A DNA stretch of 64,000 nt from Stenotrophomonas maltophilia (GTDB taxonomy: Bacteria; Pseudomonadota; Gammaproteobacteria; Xanthomonadales; Xanthomonadaceae): contig NZ_CP029773.1 in NCBI RefSeq assembly GCF_003205835.1, positions 714,501-778,500 on the forward strand. Reading direction: 5' to 3'. Numbering within the stretch: position 1 is the stretch's first letter; each line of letters starts with the position of its first letter. The notes under the pieces were generated by a model that saw only the letters and a list, made by a program, of their open reading frames with translations, did not search any database and was not told where the DNA came from. A program made the translations under genes and the position numbers. Shown piece after piece: positions 15,133 through 45,844 of the stretch.

Positions 15133-17385
15133 ATGAACCCGATGACCCGCCATACCGCCCTGTGTCTTGCTGTCTGGATGGCTTTGCCGCTGTCCGCCCA
15201 CGCTGCTGCCGCCGCTGCGCCCGGCGCGCGAGAATTCGACCGGGTGCAGGTCACCGCCACCCGCACCGAGCGGGCGGTGAGCGACGTGGCGGCCACCGTG
15301 GACGTCATCGACCGCGAGCAGATGGACCGGCACCTGGTGCAGGACATCAAGGATCTGGTGCGCTACGAACCGGGCCTGTCGGTCACTCGCAGCGCGACCC
15401 GCTTCGGCCTGGATGGTTTCCGCATCCGTGGCCTGGACGGCAACCGTGTGCGCATCCAGACCGATGGCATCGTCATGCCGACCCGGTTCGACATCGGTTC
15501 GTTCGCCAGTTCCAACCGCAATTTCACCGACCTCGATACGCTCAAGCGCGTGGAGATCGTGCGTGGTCCGGCCAGTTCGCTGTACGGCTCCGATGCACTC
15601 GGTGGCGTGGTCGCGTTCGTGACCAAGGACCCGGCCGACTACCTCAAGGATGGCAAGAACAGCTACTTCGGCCTGAAGTTCGGCTACGACGGTGAGTGGA
15701 AGGGCCTGCTCGGCGGTGCCACCGCCGCCTTTGGTGGCGACCACTGGAGCGGCCTGGTCAACGTCAACCACCACCAGGGCCAGGAAACGGACAACAAGGG
15801 CACGGTGCGCAGCGACAACGACACCCGCACTGCGTCCAATCCGCAGGATCGTGATGGCCGCAGCCTGCTCAGCAAGCTGGTCTATGCACCGAGCGAAGAC
15901 CAGCGCTTCCGCCTGACCGTGGAAGGCAACGAAGACACCACCGATACCAATGTGTTGTCGGCGATTGCCAGCGTTGCACCGCGCCCCGGCGCGATGGCTG
16001 CGGCCACTGGCATGAAGTCCCACGACACGCAGAAGCGCACCCGCGTGTCCTTTGCCCACGAAATGGATGCGCTGGACCAGCCGTTCGCCGACAGCCTGCA
16101 CTGGCAGGTGTATGCGCAGAACAGCGAAACCCGGCAGCAGACCGACGAGACCCGCACCGACGGCAGCCGCCGTCACCGCGTGTTCTCCTTCGACCAGCAT
16201 GCCTATGGCCTGCAGGCGCAGTTCAACAAGGCCTTCAGCACCGGTGCGGTCGAACACGCGCTGACCTACGGCTTCGAGGGCACGCGCACCGAGATCCGCC
16301 AGAAGCGCGACGGCTACCAGGTCAGCAAGGCCGGCGTGGTCAGCAACACGGTGGTACCGGACACCTTCCCGGTGCGTGACTTCCCGATCAGCAAGACCAC
16401 CGAGTTGGGCCTGTACGCGCAGGATGAAATGCGCCTGGCCGACGGCAAGCTGTCGCTGGTGCCGGGCGTGCGCGTGGACCGTTACGAGCTGAAGCCGGAG
16501 GTGGACAGCATCTTCGCCGAAGACAATCCGACTACCGCCGTAGCGCAGCTGAAGAAGACCAGCGTGTCGCCGAAGCTGGGCATGGTCTGGCGCTTCACCG
16601 ACCAGTGGTCGCTGTTCGCCGGGTATGCGCGTGGCTTCCGTTCGCCGCCGTACAACGACGTCAACATCGGCCTGACCAACGTGGCCTTCGGCTACACCGC
16701 CATCGCCAACCCGGACCTGAAGCCGGAAACCAGCGACGGCTACGAACTGGGCCTGCGCTTCATCGCGCCGGCGGCGTACGTCAGCGTCAGCGGCTACTAC
16801 AACGACTACAAGGACTTCATCCAGTCCAACGTCGATACCGGCCGCAACGCACAGGGCTTGACCGTGTTCCAGTCGCAGAACATCGCCGACGCGCGCATCT
16901 ATGGCGCGGAAATGAAGGCCGGCATCGAATTCGGTGAACTCAGCCCGGCGCTGAAGGGCTGGGCGCTGCGCAGTGCGTTGGCATGGTCGCGTGGTGACAA
17001 CCGGACCGATGACGAACCGTTGGCCTCGGTCGATCCGCTGCGTGGCACGCTGGGCCTGATGTACGACACCGATAGCTGGGGCGTCGAACTGGCCGGCACC
17101 TTCGTGCAGCGCAAGAAGCGCCTGCCGCCGCCGGCGGCGCAGACCAATCCGAACGCACCGGCGCCGTTCGTCTACCAGCCGGCCGGCTACGGCGTGCTGG
17201 ACCTGATGGCGCACTGGAACTTCGCACCGGGTGCCACCTTCAATGTCGGCGTGTTCAACCTGGCCGACAAGCGCTACATCGAATGGTCGTCGATCACCCC
17301 GAGCCTGATCACCAATCGCGCACTGAGCGATCGTTTCAGCAGCCCGGGCCGCACCTTCTCCGCCAGCCTTGCCGTTTCCTGGTGA
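15133..17385 (+). CDS. TonB-dependent heme/hemoglobin receptor
   Basis: The 750-residue outer-membrane receptor has a signal peptide (residues 1-24, ending LSAHA). A TonB-box-like DRVQVTATRTE follows, then a plug domain (about 40-160, with RGLDGNRVRIQTDGI and VEIVRGPASSLYGSDALGG) and a 22-strand barrel ending SASLAVSW with a terminal aromatic residue. The FRSPPYNDVN and NPDLKPETSDGYELG motifs correspond to the FRAP and NPNL boxes of heme receptors (HmuR/HemR class). It brings heme from heme or hemoglobin across the outer membrane using TonB energy. It follows hemP and precedes two accessory genes, consistent with one Fur-controlled unit. The start with a Met-Asn-Pro N-terminus gives a normal signal peptide. 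Confidence 0.93.
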   Translation: MNPMTRHTALCLAVWMALPLSAHAAAAAAPGAREFDRVQVTATRTERAVSDVAATVDVIDREQMDRHLVQDIKDLVRYEPGLSVTRSATRFGLDGFRIRGLDGNRVRIQTDGIVMPTRFDIGSFASSNRNFTDLDTLKRVEIVRGPASSLYGSDALGGVVAFVTKDPADYLKDGKNSYFGLKFGYDGEWKGLLGGATAAFGGDHWSGLVNVNHHQGQETDNKGTVRSDNDTRTASNPQDRDGRSLLSKLVYAPSEDQRFRLTVEGNEDTTDTNVLSAIASVAPRPGAMAAATGMKSHDTQKRTRVSFAHEMDALDQPFADSLHWQVYAQNSETRQQTDETRTDGSRRHRVFSFDQHAYGLQAQFNKAFSTGAVEHALTYGFEGTRTEIRQKRDGYQVSKAGVVSNTVVPDTFPVRDFPISKTTELGLYAQDEMRLADGKLSLVPGVRVDRYELKPEVDSIFAEDNPTTAVAQLKKTSVSPKLGMVWRFTDQWSLFAGYARGFRSPPYNDVNIGLTNVAFGYTAIANPDLKPETSDGYELGLRFIAPAAYVSVSGYYNDYKDFIQSNVDTGRNAQGLTVFQSQNIADARIYGAEMKAGIEFGELSPALKGWALRSALAWSRGDNRTDDEPLASVDPLRGTLGLMYDTDSWGVELAGTFVQRKKRLPPPAAQTNPNAPAPFVYQPAGYGVLDLMAHWNFAPGATFNVGVFNLADKRYIEWSSITPSLITNRALSDRFSSPGRTFSASLAVSW

Positions 17386-39844: not shown

Positions 39845-42435
39845 GGGATCAGATTCGGATCGTAGTCATCGCGGGTCGCCCCGGTGTTGCTGGGCGGCAC
39901 GAGATAGAGGTCGTCGCGGTTGTAGCCGAGGATAGCACGGCGCAGAGTGCGGTCCGTGTCCTGGCCGATGGAGCTCAGGCCCTTCAGGACGAACTCCACC
40001 TGGATGGAGTTGTTCATCTCGCCTTCGCGATTGCGGACATAGCGGCGGCCGACCACACGCACGGCCAGGCAGCAGCTGTCCCACTGGACGCCGCCGATGA
40101 TTTCCAGCGGCTCCTTGTCCTGCAGCGAGTAGTAATAGCGGCCGACCAGGCTCCAACGCGCATTCAGCGGGTACAGGAACGACAGGTCGGCCTGCTCCAG
40201 CAGGGTGCGGTCATGCTTGTTGGCACCGGGCAGAGCACCGGCATTGATGCGGTAGCGGTAGCTCAGGTTGACCACGCCGTCGTTGGGCATCAGGTAACGG
40301 GCACGGACGCTGGCCAGATCCTCGCGCTTGTACTTCGGATCCCACTGGTAGGTGGCGCCCAGGGTCCAGCGGTCGTTGATCATGTAGTTGCCGTCGGCGA
40401 TCCAGGCCGACTTGCCCTTTTCCACCGGGGCGCCGCCGGGGGTGGTGGTCACCCGCGACTCATCGAAGTACTGGATCTGGCCGATCGAGGCCGAGAAACG
40501 TTCCTTGCCGGTGGTCTGGTCGATGAACCGGGTGCTCACCGCCAGGGTCAGCTGGTTGGCGTCGTTCTGGCGGTCGGCGCCGGTGTAGCGCGAGTCGCGG
40601 AACAGCTGGCCCCAGCTGAAGGTGAAGTCACGGGTGTCGAAGATCGGCAGCTCGTCCTGGTTGCGGTACGGCGTGCGCAGGTAGAACAGGCGCGGTTCCA
40701 GGGTCTGCAGGAACGACTTGCCGCGGATGCTGGTTTCGCGATCGAAGAACAGGCCGGCGTCGATGCTGCCGATCGGCAGGCTGCGGCTGGGCGAGGTATT
40801 GCCGCGCAGCTGCTCGGGCGTGGCCGTGTTCGGGTCGATGCCCTGCGAACTCAGGATCTGGGCCTGGATGCCTCTCACACCATCCACCAGGCCACGGTCC
40901 AGCTGATAGGCGGTGTAGCGGTAGGCCAGGGTCGGGGTCACATACCAGGCCGCGCCGCTGATCGGGAACGACACATACGGCTTCACGTCCAATCGCGAAC
41001 CGCCGCTGATACCGACGCCGTCTGTCCACTGCACTCCGTTGCGGGTGTACTGCAGATCCTTACCGGTGCCGACGGCGTTCTTGAAGTTGATGTCGTCGTG
41101 GGTGAAGCGCACCGCTTCGGCGTAGATGCCGGCTTCCAGCCAGGGCCGGACCGGCTTGTCCCAGTTGAAGTACAGGCGTGGCTGGCGGTTGTAGGGCAGG
41201 GCGCGCTCGTCGAGCGTGTAGTCAGTCAGCTGCCAGCGGTCGGCCATGATCCCGGCCGTCCAGTTCTTGCCGGTACCGTACAGGCCGATGGTGCTCTGCA
41301 GGTTGGACGCAGTCACACCGACCAGGCGGTTGGCGAAGTCCTCGACATAACGCTCGTCGCTGACCCAGGCCAGGTTGGCGCGGGCCTGCCAGTGGTCGTC
41401 CACGTTGTGGTAACCGGAAAACATCACGCGGCCGCGGTCGCGGTCGCGCAGGCGGTCGTTGGGCATGAACGATGTCAGCACCTCGCCACGGCCGCCGTTG
41501 TAGAGGTAGCGGAACTCGTTGTCGAGCAGCAGGCCGCGCCGGCTCATGTAGCGCGGGGTCAGCGTATCGTCGTAGTTCGGCGCCAGATTGAAGTAGATCG
41601 GCTGCGCGTAGTCGACGCCGTTGCGGCCGGACATGCCCAGCTGCGGGAACAGCAGGCCGGTCTTGCGGCGATCATCGATCGGGAACTTGAAGTACGGCGC
41701 CCACAGCACCGGCACCTTGCCGATGCGCAGCACGGCGTTGCGGGCCGTACCGAAGCCTTCGTCGTTGTCCACTTCGATCTGCGGCGCCGACAGCTTCCAC
41801 ACCGGCTGCGACGGGTCGCAGGTGGTGTAGGTGGAGCGGTGCATCTGGCCGACCGCGCCCTGCAGGTCGACCGATTCGGCATCGCCGTTGCCCCGGCGCG
41901 ACACCAGCTGGTACTTGATGTCGGAGATCTTGTGGGTGTCGCTTTCCTGGTTGCCCTCGGCGCGCTTGGCGATCATCCGGATCGACCCGTCCTGGTAGCG
42001 GACGTTGCCGTCGGCGATGTAGTTGCCGGTCTCGGTATCGAAGCTGAGCTTGTCGGTGCCGACGAACTGGTCGCCGCGGCGCAGTGCCACGTTGCCCTCG
42101 TACTGCGGCACCGTGGTGGTGCCCAGCAGCTGGTCACCCTCGATGTCGGTCGGCTGGTTCTCGCGCGCGGCGGCGGCGCTGGCCTTGTCCTGGCCGGGAA
42201 CCGGGGTGGGGGCGTCGGTGAACGCGGGAATGACGTCGGTGGCCGGGCACAGGCCCCAGTTGAGCGGCTTTTCATCGGCCATCGCCGGCAGGCTGATGGC
42301 GATGCTCAGAGGCAGGGGAAGCAGGCGGAGGGCTCGGCGCACGCGGTTCGGATTCGGGCGAAAACGGACGGTAGCTTGCCCCATCCCTTGCATAGGGGCA
42401 ATGAAGGGCGCCGCAGGGGGCCGGTTCGGGTTCAT
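39841..42435 (-). CDS. lptD: LPS-assembly outer-membrane protein LptD
   Basis: The 864-residue outer-membrane protein inserts lipopolysaccharide into the outer leaflet together with LptE. The N-terminal region has a hydrophobic signal (ALRLLPLPLSIAISLPAMA, near residues 36-54), then an OstA/beta-taco domain (GDQFVGTDKLSFDTETGNYI). A long barrel of about 26 strands ends near NTGATRDDYDPNLIP. Cys residues in GLCPATD, TTCDPSQPVW and WDSCCLAVRVVGRRY fit the disulfides needed for LptD activity. The start at 42435 overlaps the previous stop (ATGA); later Mets at 42393 and 42384 are also possible and would give a more normal signal length. Confidence 0.95.
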   Translation of the reverse strand: MNPNRPPAAPFIAPMQGMGQATVRFRPNPNRVRRALRLLPLPLSIAISLPAMADEKPLNWGLCPATDVIPAFTDAPTPVPGQDKASAAAARENQPTDIEGDQLLGTTTVPQYEGNVALRRGDQFVGTDKLSFDTETGNYIADGNVRYQDGSIRMIAKRAEGNQESDTHKISDIKYQLVSRRGNGDAESVDLQGAVGQMHRSTYTTCDPSQPVWKLSAPQIEVDNDEGFGTARNAVLRIGKVPVLWAPYFKFPIDDRRKTGLLFPQLGMSGRNGVDYAQPIYFNLAPNYDDTLTPRYMSRRGLLLDNEFRYLYNGGRGEVLTSFMPNDRLRDRDRGRVMFSGYHNVDDHWQARANLAWVSDERYVEDFANRLVGVTASNLQSTIGLYGTGKNWTAGIMADRWQLTDYTLDERALPYNRQPRLYFNWDKPVRPWLEAGIYAEAVRFTHDDINFKNAVGTGKDLQYTRNGVQWTDGVGISGGSRLDVKPYVSFPISGAAWYVTPTLAYRYTAYQLDRGLVDGVRGIQAQILSSQGIDPNTATPEQLRGNTSPSRSLPIGSIDAGLFFDRETSIRGKSFLQTLEPRLFYLRTPYRNQDELPIFDTRDFTFSWGQLFRDSRYTGADRQNDANQLTLAVSTRFIDQTTGKERFSASIGQIQYFDESRVTTTPGGAPVEKGKSAWIADGNYMINDRWTLGATYQWDPKYKREDLASVRARYLMPNDGVVNLSYRYRINAGALPGANKHDRTLLEQADLSFLYPLNARWSLVGRYYYSLQDKEPLEIIGGVQWDSCCLAVRVVGRRYVRNREGEMNNSIQVEFVLKGLSSIGQDTDRTLRRAILGYNRDDLYLVPPSNTGATRDDYDPNLIP

Positions 42436-43370
42436 CCGGCGGCGGCGCTGGAAGCCGATGACATCAGGGCCTGGACGTGGGCCACGCTGCACTCGGCGAG
42501 GGCCTGCAGGTCGTAGCCGCCCTCCAGCATCGACACCACCCGGCCGGCCGCGTGACGACGCGCCAGCGCGTGCAGTTCACGGGTGATCCAGGCGAAATCG
42601 TCGGTCTCCAGCATCAGGTCGGCCTGCGGGTCGCGCAGGTGGGCGTCGAAGCCGGCCGAGATCAGCAGCAGCTGCGGACGGAAGTCGTCGATGGCCGGCA
42701 GCATCTCGTCGGCCCAGACATTGCGGAAGCGGAACCCCCCACTGCCCGGCGGCAGCAGGATGTTCATCAGGTTGCCGGCACCGCGGTCGCGGCGCAGGCC
42801 GGAATTGGGAAACAGCCCGGCCTGGTGGGTGCTGTAGTACGAGACCCGGGCGTCGTGCTGGAAGATGTCCTGGGTGCCGTTGCCGTGGTGGACATCGAAA
42901 TCGACCACCGCGATCCGCTCCAGGCCATGGCGGTCGCGGGCATAGGCGGCGGCGATGGCGATGTTGTTGAGCAGGCAGAAGCCCATCGCCGTGCTGCTGG
43001 TGGCGTGGTGGCCCGGCGGGCGTACCGCGCAGAAGGCCAGCGGGTCGTCGCCCAGCATCACCGCATCGACCGCGGCCACGCCGGCGCCGGCGGCATGCAC
43101 AGCGGCGCTGGCCGAGCCGGGTGAGGTCCAGGTGTCCATGTCCAGCTGGCGCAGCGGTGCGGTCTGCGGTTGCAGCACGAAGTCGAGCAGGGCGCTGTCG
43201 TGGACCCGGGTCAGTTCACCGAACTTGGCCGGTGGTGCTTCGCGCCACTCCAGCTGGCCGGGGAACGCGGCGTGCAGCGCGTCCAGCACATGCTGCAGGC
43301 GTTGCGGGCACTCGGGATGGCCCGGACCGGGGTCATGCAGCAGGCAGGACGGGTGGGTATAGACCAGCAT
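42432..43370 (-). CDS. Histone-deacetylase-family amidohydrolase
   Basis: The 312-residue zinc enzyme of the class II HDAC/acetylpolyamine amidohydrolase superfamily has FCAVRPPGHHATSSTAMGFC near residues 112-131 (the His-His charge relay), DFDVHHGNGTQDIF near 154-167 (zinc Asp and His), and LLISAGFDAHLRDP near 235 (third zinc ligand). The short N-terminus (MLVYTHPSCLLHDPGPGHPE) is standard. Bacterial members deacetylate polyamines, acetoin-type adducts or proteins; the substrate here is unknown. It is tightly embedded in a unit with cobalamin and LPS genes, overlapping lptD by 4 bp. Confidence 0.88.
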   Translation of the reverse strand: MLVYTHPSCLLHDPGPGHPECPQRLQHVLDALHAAFPGQLEWREAPPAKFGELTRVHDSALLDFVLQPQTAPLRQLDMDTWTSPGSASAAVHAAGAGVAAVDAVMLGDDPLAFCAVRPPGHHATSSTAMGFCLLNNIAIAAAYARDRHGLERIAVVDFDVHHGNGTQDIFQHDARVSYYSTHQAGLFPNSGLRRDRGAGNLMNILLPPGSGGFRFRNVWADEMLPAIDDFRPQLLLISAGFDAHLRDPQADLMLETDDFAWITRELHALARRHAAGRVVSMLEGGYDLQALAECSVAHVQALMSSASSAAAG

Positions 43371-43379
43371 CGTGTCGAC

Positions 43380-43934
43380 TCAGCGCTGGCGCTGCTGTGG
43401 CTGCCACAGCGCTTCGCCATGGCCATCGGCGCGGGCCAGTACGCGGGCCAGTACGAACAGCAGGTCCGACAGCCGGTTGAGGTACTGCAGCGCCTCGCTG
43501 CGCACGGCCTCGTGGCGGGCCAGGGTGACCGTCTCGCGCTCGGCGCGGCGGACGATGGTGCGCGCCAGGTGGCAGCGCGCGGCGGCTTCGCCACCGGCCG
43601 GCAGGATGAACTCCTTCAGCATCGGCAGGTCGGCATTGTAGTGGTCCAGCTGCTGCTCCAGCGCCGAGATATCGGCAGCGTGGATCGCGGCATGGCCGGG
43701 AATGCAAAGCTCGGCGCCCAGGTCGAACAACTGGTGCTGCAGATGCACCACCAGCGCGCGCACGTCCTCGGGCAGGGGCGCGGCCAGCAGCAGGCCAAGC
43801 GCGGCATTGGCTTCGTCGACGGTGCCGTAGGACGCCACGCGGGCGTCATCCTTGGCCACGCGCTGGCCGTCGCCAAGGCCGGTACTGCCGTCGTCGCCGG
43901 TGCGGGTGTAGATGCGCGAGAGGCGATGACCCAT
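43380..43934 (-). CDS. Cob(I)alamin adenosyltransferase, PduO type
   Basis: The 184-residue helical-bundle enzyme transfers the 5'-deoxyadenosyl group of ATP to cob(I)alamin, forming coenzyme B12. The ATP-binding N-terminus RIYTRTGDDGSTGLGDGQRV is intact, along with the helix signature VASYGTVDEANAALG and the C-terminal EALQYLNRLSDLLFVLARVL with the conserved Asn-Arg-Leu-Ser-Asp. The start MGHRLSR is used; upstream residues (to 44081) are in the reading frame of the neighbour's antisense. It is 8 bp behind the BtuM-like gene, so imported B12 could be adenosylated at once. It is followed after 9 bp by the deacetylase-family gene. Confidence 0.93.
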   Translation of the reverse strand: MGHRLSRIYTRTGDDGSTGLGDGQRVAKDDARVASYGTVDEANAALGLLLAAPLPEDVRALVVHLQHQLFDLGAELCIPGHAAIHAADISALEQQLDHYNADLPMLKEFILPAGGEAAARCHLARTIVRRAERETVTLARHEAVRSEALQYLNRLSDLLFVLARVLARADGHGEALWQPQQRQR

Positions 43935-43942
43935 GGCGCGGC

Positions 43943-44527
43943 TCAGTGGCGGATGTCGCGGCGGGCCTGCTGGAGCTTCAACACCTGCTCCACGGCCAGC
44001 TGCAGCGCGGCAGCCAGCGCCACATAGATCGCCGTGGTGCGCAGGTAGGGCCCGAACCACTGCGCGTAGTTCTGTGCCCAACCGGCCAGCGTCGGTTCGG
44101 CCACGTTACGGCTGCTCCAGTAGAAACCGCCCTGTGCCAGCAGGTGGCAGACCGCCACCGAAGCGACCAGCAGCAGTGCGCCCTTGGCCAGTACCGGCCA
44201 GCGCGCGCTCTGGTAGTTGCGGCCCAGCAGCATGCCGCCGGCCCACAGCGAGAAGTAGGCCGGCAGCAGCAGCCAGTAGCCCGGCGACACGCAGTAGTGC
44301 TGCCAGAAATCCAGACCGCTGCTGCGGATCACGATCCAGTCCACCAGCACCGCGAACACCATCAGCAACGGGAACGCCCAGCGGGTCCAGCGCGCCAGGT
44401 AGAAGCCACCGATGAAGAACACGGCCCAGGAGGCATCGGGGATCGCCGCGAAGTGATTGACCCGGGTCGCCGCCAGCAGCAGTACGAGCACGGACAGGAC
44501 GAAGGCGCGGTTGGCGGTGTCGGACAT
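43943..44527 (-). CDS. btuM: Putative vitamin B12 transporter, BtuM-like solitary S-component
   Basis: The 194-residue protein has six hydrophobic helices: FVLSVLVLLLAA, WAVFFIGGFYLA, WAFPLLMVFAVLVDW, GYWLLLPAYFSLWAGG, VLAKGALLLVASVAVCHLLA and YVALAAALQLAVEQVL. The sequence WQHYCVSPGYWLLLPAY places a Cys at residue 79. BtuM proteins are ECF-type S-components that act alone, and in the Thiobacillus BtuM a Cys at position 80 in this loop coordinates cobalt and decyanates B12. NHFAAIPDASWA near the N-terminus is also typical. The downstream adenosyltransferase gene supports B12 import. It is the first gene of the minus-strand run. No ATPase or T-component gene is nearby. Confidence 0.72.
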   Translation of the reverse strand: MSDTANRAFVLSVLVLLLAATRVNHFAAIPDASWAVFFIGGFYLARWTRWAFPLLMVFAVLVDWIVIRSSGLDFWQHYCVSPGYWLLLPAYFSLWAGGMLLGRNYQSARWPVLAKGALLLVASVAVCHLLAQGGFYWSSRNVAEPTLAGWAQNYAQWFGPYLRTTAIYVALAAALQLAVEQVLKLQQARRDIRH

Positions 44528-44626
44528 GGTGGGGGCCCGGAGCGGATTCAGGTTTCATTCTAGCCCGCCGCGCAGGTTGGCGCAGGTCGGGGGGCGTTGG
44601 GTGTTCGGGCGGGGCGAGCGCGTATC

Positions 44627-45844
44627 ATGAACACCATGAGTGAACGACATGACGTGCTGATCGTCGGTGGCGGCCTGGTCGGTGCCAGCCTGGCCATCGC
44701 CCTGGACCGGCTGGGCCGCGATGTGGGCCTGCTCGAAGCCAGCCCGGCCGGCGAGCTGCCGGCGGTGTTCGACCAGCGCAACCTCAGTTTCGCGGCGGCC
44801 ACCGTCAACGCGCTGACCGCGCTGGGGGTCATGCAGAAGCTGGCGATGGCGCCGGGCCCGATCCGTCGCATCCACGTCAGCCGCGCCGGCGATTTCGGCC
44901 GCGTGCAGCTGGAGGCTTCCGACTACGACCGGCCCTGGTTCGGCCAGGTGGTGGTGGCGCGTGACTTCGGCCAGGCGCTGGAAGCGCGCCTGCAGGAACT
45001 GCCACGGCTGCGCCGTTACCGGCCGATGCGGTTCCTGGGGTTGGGCGAGGTGATCGATGGCTACCGCCAGGTGCGGGTGGCCGACGAGGCCGGCGAGCGC
45101 GTGCTGCTGGCACGGCTGGTGGTCGGTGCCGATGGCACCACCAGCGGCGTGCGTGGCGCGCTGGGCATCGAGGTCGACCGTCATGATTTCCAGCAGACCC
45201 TGTTCGTGGCCCGCGTGCGCAGCCAGCGTGCGCCGGACGGCACCGCCTGGGAGCGCTTCACCGATACCGGCCCAACCGCCCTGCTGCCGCGTGGTGACCG
45301 CCACTTCGGCACTGTGCACGGTGTTGCGCGCGACCAGGCCGATGCGGTGATGGCGCTGGATGATGCGGCCTGGCTGCAGCGGCTGCAGGATGCGATCGGC
45401 TGGCGTGCCGGCCGCCTGCTCGAATCTGGCCCGCGCAGCGCTTACCCGCTCATCCAGGTGCTGGCGCGCGCGCTGGCCGGTGAGCGCACGGTGCTGCTTG
45501 GCAATGCCGCGCAGACCATCCATCCATTGGGTGCGCAGGGCTTCAACCTGGGCCTGCGCGATGCGCTGACCCTGGCCGAACTGCTGGAGGATGCGCATGA
45601 GGATGCCGGCAGCGACGCGCTGCTGCAGGCCTATGTCGCGCGCCGCGAGGACGACCGCCGGCAGACGGTGGCGTTCTCGGGTGGCCTGGCACGCCTGACC
45701 AGCAATCCGGCACCGCTGATGCGGCCGCTGCGCAGCCTCGGCCTGGTGGCTGCACAACGTGCCTCGGTGCAGTCGATGCTGGTCGGTGGTGCGATGGGCT
45801 TCCGTGGTGAAGTGCCGCGCCTGTGCCGCGGAGAAGCCGCATGA
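44627..45844 (+). CDS. ubiH: Ubiquinone-biosynthesis FAD hydroxylase UbiH
   Basis: The 405-residue flavoprotein monooxygenase has the FAD-binding HDVLIVGGGLVGASLAIALD, the FDQRNLSFA block near residue 52, LVVGADGTTSGVRG near 170 (the GD motif), and LLGNAAQTIHPLGAQGFNLG near 298-317 with the conserved substrate/FAD site. It most likely hydroxylates the ubiquinone precursor ring at C1. A second Met at 44636 (MSERHDVLI) is an equally plausible start. It overlaps the next hydroxylase gene by 4 bp. It is divergent from btuM with 99 bp between starts. Confidence 0.9.
   Translation: MNTMSERHDVLIVGGGLVGASLAIALDRLGRDVGLLEASPAGELPAVFDQRNLSFAAATVNALTALGVMQKLAMAPGPIRRIHVSRAGDFGRVQLEASDYDRPWFGQVVVARDFGQALEARLQELPRLRRYRPMRFLGLGEVIDGYRQVRVADEAGERVLLARLVVGADGTTSGVRGALGIEVDRHDFQQTLFVARVRSQRAPDGTAWERFTDTGPTALLPRGDRHFGTVHGVARDQADAVMALDDAAWLQRLQDAIGWRAGRLLESGPRSAYPLIQVLARALAGERTVLLGNAAQTIHPLGAQGFNLGLRDALTLAELLEDAHEDAGSDALLQAYVARREDDRRQTVAFSGGLARLTSNPAPLMRPLRSLGLVAAQRASVQSMLVGGAMGFRGEVPRLCRGEAA

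Follow-up and report, generated by a model that had tools for sequence, protein, structure and literature searches.

The interval 43380-44527 of the window, that is, of the whole 64-kb stretch of DNA that was analysed, contains two genes, btuM and pduO, and it raises the question of how cobalamin could be taken up by one small membrane protein whose gene adjoins that of an adenosyltransferase. In the accessible part of Rempel 2018 (PMC6072759), btuM is stated to co-localize with btuR in most hosts, and metabolic trapping is proposed. The pairing of importer and adenosyltransferase is thus already in print in that source; what is new here is the PduO-family partner and its persistence in a genome in which no enzyme depending on adenosylcobalamin (AdoCbl) was found. 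In the open literature on BtuM with cobalamin, adenosyltransferase, PduO or Xanthomonas, the portions consulted described no PduO-type partner; the supplement of Rempel 2018, outside this scope, may list these species.

Organization of the locus

The features of the locus are collected in Table 1. The pduO gene lies downstream of btuM, with a gap of 8 bp between the btuM stop and the pduO ATG. In the ORF reading, btuM encodes 194 residues, and residue 79 is the cysteine of the motif HYCVSPGYW. Both look like real genes, considering the phmmer match of BtuM (1.6e-32), the Cob_adeno_trans score of PduO (202 bits) and dN/dS values far below 1 in comparisons of close relatives.

Table 1. Features of the btuM-pduO locus in window coordinates
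Feature	Position	Strand	Evidence and remarks
btuM, putative solitary six-helix cobalamin importer, PduO-linked BtuM group	43943..44527	(-)	phmmer, AlphaFold, VIA-align, tree
Cys79 codon of btuM	44291-44293	(-)	aligned with cobalt-ligating Cys80 of T. denitrificans BtuM
pduO-type ATP:cob(I)alamin adenosyltransferase (predicted), 184 aa	43380..43934	(-)	PF01923, TIGR00636, phmmer
Histone-deacetylase-family gene	42432..43370	(-)	PF00850, 284 bits; 9 bp downstream of pduO
ubiH, divergent neighbour, 5' border of the cluster	44597..45844	(+)	TIGR01984, 396 bits (cut-off 392)

An Rfam scan of the 64-kb window gave no family at its cut-off, hence no cobalamin riboswitch at btuM-pduO, and the pair is therefore not visibly co-regulated with btuB. 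The deacetylase-family gene is a conserved third gene after btuM-pduO. The window also encodes a TonB-dependent receptor that belongs to the heme/hemoglobin family (15133-17385; TIGR01786, 453 bits, cut-off 324) and apparently has no relation to the B12 locus.

Identification of BtuM

When the membrane protein was compared with all solved chains by phmmer, one strong match was obtained, the cobalamin transporter 8c7p/8ovv (8c7p_A, residues 12-184, 116 bits, E=1.6e-32); the remaining matches were two antibody chains (E 0.21 and 0.76). In this alignment, Cys79 stands under the cobalt ligand Cys80 of T. denitrificans BtuM, and the pocket residues H28, D67, C80 and Y85 of that protein correspond to H25, D63, C79 and Y84. 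These four residues are invariant or nearly so in alignment A1, and Cys79 is invariant in both A1 and A2. On the other hand, the window BtuM is longer by three residues ahead of the cysteine, and it has N153 where T. denitrificans BtuM has R153. The R153A variant of the T. denitrificans protein retained cobalamin binding and decyanation (Rempel 2018, PMC6072759).

The AlphaFold model, built from 19 aligned sequences (alignment A2), showed six helices and a mean pLDDT of 86.2. Foldseek placed two BtuM entries on top (E 5e-9 and 2e-8), with 40% identity to T. denitrificans BtuM in the fold alignment, the next entry having an E of 1.2. VIA-align gave Z values of 21.3 (8c7p) and 20.9 for the BtuM entries. 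The next 18 rows (Z 8.8-11.8) carried the titles of ECF transporters, of S-components or of named proteins (ThiT, RibU, FolT), one being just "a transporter"; helical proteins below a Z of about 13 may reflect a common arrangement or chance, and the S-component rows alone are not decisive, the BtuM rows lying well above them.

No family reached its cut-off in Pfam and NCBIfam scans of the window BtuM, nor did any Pfam family in the nine BtuMs scanned. DUF6580 was considered as the identity of BtuM and rejected: with 19.8 bits in the window BtuM and in that of L008, it fell short of its cut-off of 27, and it was absent from the list for the other seven. The initial annotation had proposed a BtuM-like importer; the sequence and fold matches point to BtuM itself, and no unrelated family matched at cut-off in the profile searches. 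From its sequence, modelled fold and cysteine, we identify the predicted protein as BtuM.

The adenosyltransferase partner

The ORF after btuM scored 202.1 bits against PF01923 (Cob_adeno_trans; cut-off 24) and 194.1 bits against TIGR00636 (curated cut-off 108.45). Its best solved match was chain 2zhy_A (phmmer, E=1.6e-65), and the likeness to this PduO-type adenosyltransferase (2zhy/2zhz) covered nearly its full length. The neighbour of btuM is accordingly classed by these profiles as a PduO-type enzyme, as had been claimed for the gene beginning 8 bp after btuM, and adenosylation is its predicted activity.

Conservation of the gene pair

In an order-wide sample of 151 genomes, drawn evenly, 44 genomes had a BtuM match (54 matches), and all but one, a 165-base match, were examined. 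The cysteine was kept in 53 of these 53. PduO and UbiH were each present in all of the 30 best loci, PduO being adjacent to btuM, and the deacetylase in 28; at six further loci with 39-43% BtuM identity, PduO was again adjacent (6/6).

A named collection gave at least 575 confirmed relatives, of which we considered the best 80; being the closest ones, these give no information on other orders. Their titles name Stenotrophomonas, Xanthomonas, Luteimonas, Lysobacter, Pseudoxanthomonas, Arenimonas, unplaced bins and one "Bacillus subtilis". In these best 80 of at least 575 loci, adjacent PduO, a deacetylase match and Cys79 were each found in 80/80 and a UbiH match in 77/80, and the distance between btuM and pduO was 1-40 bp in 78/80. 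Negative distances were computed for L124 (-44; a stop lies inside the matched stretch) and L142 (-190). The contig titled Bacillus subtilis SK7B5 (L092) carries a Stenotrophomonas-like btuM-pduO locus with 73% BtuM identity and is most likely a mislabelled or contaminated assembly. The loop around Cys79 had been read as the one expected of solitary ECF-type BtuM transporters; the alignment with Cys80 and the retention of the cysteine in both collections agree with that reading.

The dN/dS analysis excluded rows that contained gaps or stops, rested on short matches or had a dS outside the range 0.02-1. The values were 0.028-0.081 for pduO in the first 15 of 59 rows and 0.009-0.125 for btuM in the first 16 of 40 rows; the medians over all usable rows were higher, at 0.234 (59 pduO rows) and 0.283 (40 btuM rows). 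These values indicate strong purifying selection on both genes among near relatives.

Two adenosyltransferase families beside BtuM

The BtuM group of the window comprises 36 loci in the order, and PduO (PF01923) is present in 36/36. The other BtuM matches of the order, 28-39% identical to that of the window, form 14 loci. In 12 of these (L046-L057), a cysteine-bearing BtuM is likewise followed by an ATP:corrinoid adenosyltransferase, in the order btuB-btuM-btuR, but the enzyme is of the CobA/BtuR type (PF02572), the BtuMs belong to other groups, and a BtuB homologue adjoins btuM upstream in 11 of the 12, L048 stopping at the contig edge. The adenosyltransferase of L052 scored 205 bits against PF02572 in a Pfam scan, and blastp of it against the window PduO gave no significant match (best E 0.22).

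Three of these loci also differ from the window in carrying, next to btuR, a tandem of two divergent BtuMs that each have the cysteine (L046:3682-4898, L047:4394-5574, L048:3950-4960). The second copy at L046 scores 149 bits against T. denitrificans BtuM, above the value of the window BtuM. The BtuM-like proteins of L058 and L059 are distant ones (28-30% identical) and come from a pair of genomes that belong to one other family; they have the cysteine, and neither an adenosyltransferase match nor a BtuB match was found nearby.

Six genomes (G032, G039, G046, G085, G105, G125) have both a PduO-linked and a BtuR-linked BtuM. When 52 BtuMs were placed in a maximum-likelihood tree, the 36 PduO-linked proteins formed one group (support 96/98), and two changes were needed for the 14 BtuR-linked BtuMs; long branches come together in this tree, and its root is uncertain. 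In our reading of this tree, one change of adenosyltransferase family would have accompanied the PduO-linked BtuM lineage. Since BtuM recurs with two adenosyltransferase families, these data support trapping.

Other routes of cobalamin import in the genome

The genome carrying the window, that of a Stenotrophomonas-like bacterium, is one contig of 4.89 Mb. The search for an ECF module was a search for EcfT/CbiQ (PF02361), which gave 0 matches in this genome; in the control, 10 of 14 genomes gave a match, 9 of them over the cut-off. We regard it as highly improbable that BtuM is an S-component that borrows the ATPase module of another importer, so that uptake would be driven by ATP and not by facilitated diffusion and trapping. 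The model of BtuM does resemble S-component chains (Z 8.8-11.8), and ATPases that serve other ABC importers, for example the heme-type one at L039, are encoded in the genome. EcfT/CbiQ was not found in it, however, and T. denitrificans BtuM is functional in E. coli, a host stated to have no ECF module (Rempel 2018, PMC6072759).

Two FecCD permeases were found in the genome, with 277/261 and 226/179 bits against BtuC cut-offs of 461/334, and neither reached an NCBIfam cut-off for BtuC. One of these importers (L039) has a heme-type ATPase (NF010068, 313 bits, cut-off 261). The other, at L040, could carry corrinoids: BtuC models are among the best matches of its permease (C1:2703454; 225.8 and 178.6 bits), and its binding protein matches BtuF weakly (31 bits). 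If this ABC system were the main importer, BtuM would be just a decyanase or would have a minor-corrinoid role. We consider this very unlikely, given that the permease scores far below the BtuC cut-offs, that the TonB receptor of L040 scores best against a siderophore-receptor model (itself below cut-off), that the only two cobalamin riboswitch matches of the genome lie elsewhere, and that hydroxocobalamin, too, sustains growth through T. denitrificans BtuM (Rempel 2018, PMC6072759). The part of the initial annotation that dispensed with a BtuCD ABC system is consistent with the scores of both permeases and with the heme-type ATPase, although these do not prove it.

For the outer membrane, the BtuB candidate passes TIGR01779 (618.6 bits, cut-off 599.7) and fails NF007926 (356.8, cut-off 836). 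Its gene lies just downstream of one of the two cobalamin riboswitch matches.

Search for AdoCbl-dependent enzymes

The cobalamin users found in the genome were a split MetH and QueG (495 bits, cut-off 200). MetH is divided over two adjacent ORFs of 363 and 913 aa (L041:4724-8557), the homocysteine-binding part being apart from the rest. PF02310 was above its cut-off only in MetH; a second match, with 21 bits, was below the cut-off and lay opposite a 596-aa ORF, and it was rejected as a B12 enzyme. The AdoCbl-dependent ribonucleotide reductase NrdJ was rejected as well: both candidates were below the NrdJ cut-off and passed that of class I NrdE_NrdA (562.6 and 718.1), and the ORF after the second candidate matched beta-subunit models, all below their cut-offs. 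EutB was not found in the genome, E. coli alone giving a match among the 14 controls, and the diol dehydratase PF02286 matched neither the genome nor any control.

The mutase MM_CoA_mutase (PF01642) also had no match in this genome. As it is present in 47 of 60 genomes of the family, including G013, the sole other genome of the genus in the sample, the lineage studied here probably lost it. The same distribution would fit the alternative that pduO was kept for this mutase, the pair now being a relic after its loss. Both genes are under strong purifying selection among close relatives, although these may include genomes with the mutase, and we judge the relic reading to be unlikely.

The initial annotation had the pair import cobalamin and convert it to the coenzyme. 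This is right as chemistry, as far as the PduO family predicts it, but the search of the genome gave no enzyme that would use the coenzyme. This leaves trapping or signalling to account for the need for PduO: AdoCbl may act chiefly as a trap and as the ligand of the two cobalamin riboswitches, before btuB and queH.

Cobalamin riboswitches and B12-independent isozymes

As members of their family, the two cobalamin riboswitches would be expected to prefer AdoCbl. The second of these only two matches in the genome (C1:236077-236306; L037:10078-10307) lies directly before queH (PF02677; L037:9230-9943). In G131 of the same genus (L241), the riboswitch is followed by metE (TIGR01371, 1103 bits, cut-off 930) and then queH, in G151 (L243) by a MetE-like gene and then queH, and in G086 by queH. 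This arrangement suggests an operon of B12-independent isozymes, metE-queH, whose products are isozymes of MetH and QueG, under a B12 sensor. From these four genomes, the simplest history would be that metE was lost from the queH operon in the lineage studied here.

A survey of the family gave 83 riboswitch loci in 39 of 40 genomes. Directly downstream was queH in one locus, that of the present genome, and a MetE-like gene was followed by queH in one; metE was found in 11. A BtuB-like receptor match lay in the stretch in 41 loci (four also with BtuM, one also with queH flanking the riboswitch on its opposite side), some of these matches being just 30-35% identical and possibly other receptors, and 29 loci had none of the queried genes. 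Riboswitch-controlled queH as a rule for the whole family is thus not supported. The literature on queH or metE with a cobalamin riboswitch or B12, as far as it was accessible, gave no description of metE-queH under a B12 sensor.

Discussion

On the one hand, the locus shares with the T. denitrificans system (8c7p, 8ovv; Rempel 2018, PMC6072759) the sequence of BtuM, its six-helix S-component-like fold, the cobalt-ligand cysteine, a co-localized adenosyltransferase gene and a host without EcfT. On the other hand, the partner here is of the PduO type (PF01923), whereas the accessible text of that paper names BtuR, and no btuB or btuR match was seen in the examined flanks and no riboswitch in the window. 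Solitary BioY is also an S-component without an ECF module (Rempel 2018, PMC6072759), but its vitamin is biotin.

We consider it very probable that the two genes, btuM and pduO, make up a unit for cobalamin salvage. The basis here is homology, fold, the cysteine, the conserved adjacency, a genome in which no EcfT was found, and the riboswitches before btuB and queH. In this unit, BtuB would bring cobalamin across the outer membrane, and BtuM alone, without an ECF module, would bind it in the periplasm via Cys79, base-off and with decyanation, and would let it follow its gradient through the inner membrane. For transport, decyanation and base-off binding, we rely by analogy on T. denitrificans BtuM (Rempel 2018, PMC6072759). 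In the cytoplasm, PduO would adenosylate cobalamin and thereby, as we infer, trap it and supply AdoCbl, which would also act on both riboswitches.

A further reading, which we put forward tentatively and hold to be possible rather than probable, is that AdoCbl made by this import-and-trap pair serves no AdoCbl-dependent enzyme at all. It would hold cobalamin in the cell and report the B12 supply to the btuB and queH riboswitches, the B12-independent isozymes being turned off when BtuM-PduO succeeds.

BtuM represents a rare case, a transporter believed to alter what it carries and to function with no energy module. As the nine BtuMs scanned gave no Pfam match at cut-off, and that of the window no NCBIfam match either, this importer may be missed in annotation. 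The present genome, in which the search for AdoCbl-dependent enzymes gave none, would be a suitable host for testing trapping, and the two adenosyltransferase families recurring beside BtuM are comparative evidence for the trapping model. In the tentative reading given above, this recurrence would mean that uptake by BtuM is driven by adenosylation, and base-off cobalamin might then be handed over directly.
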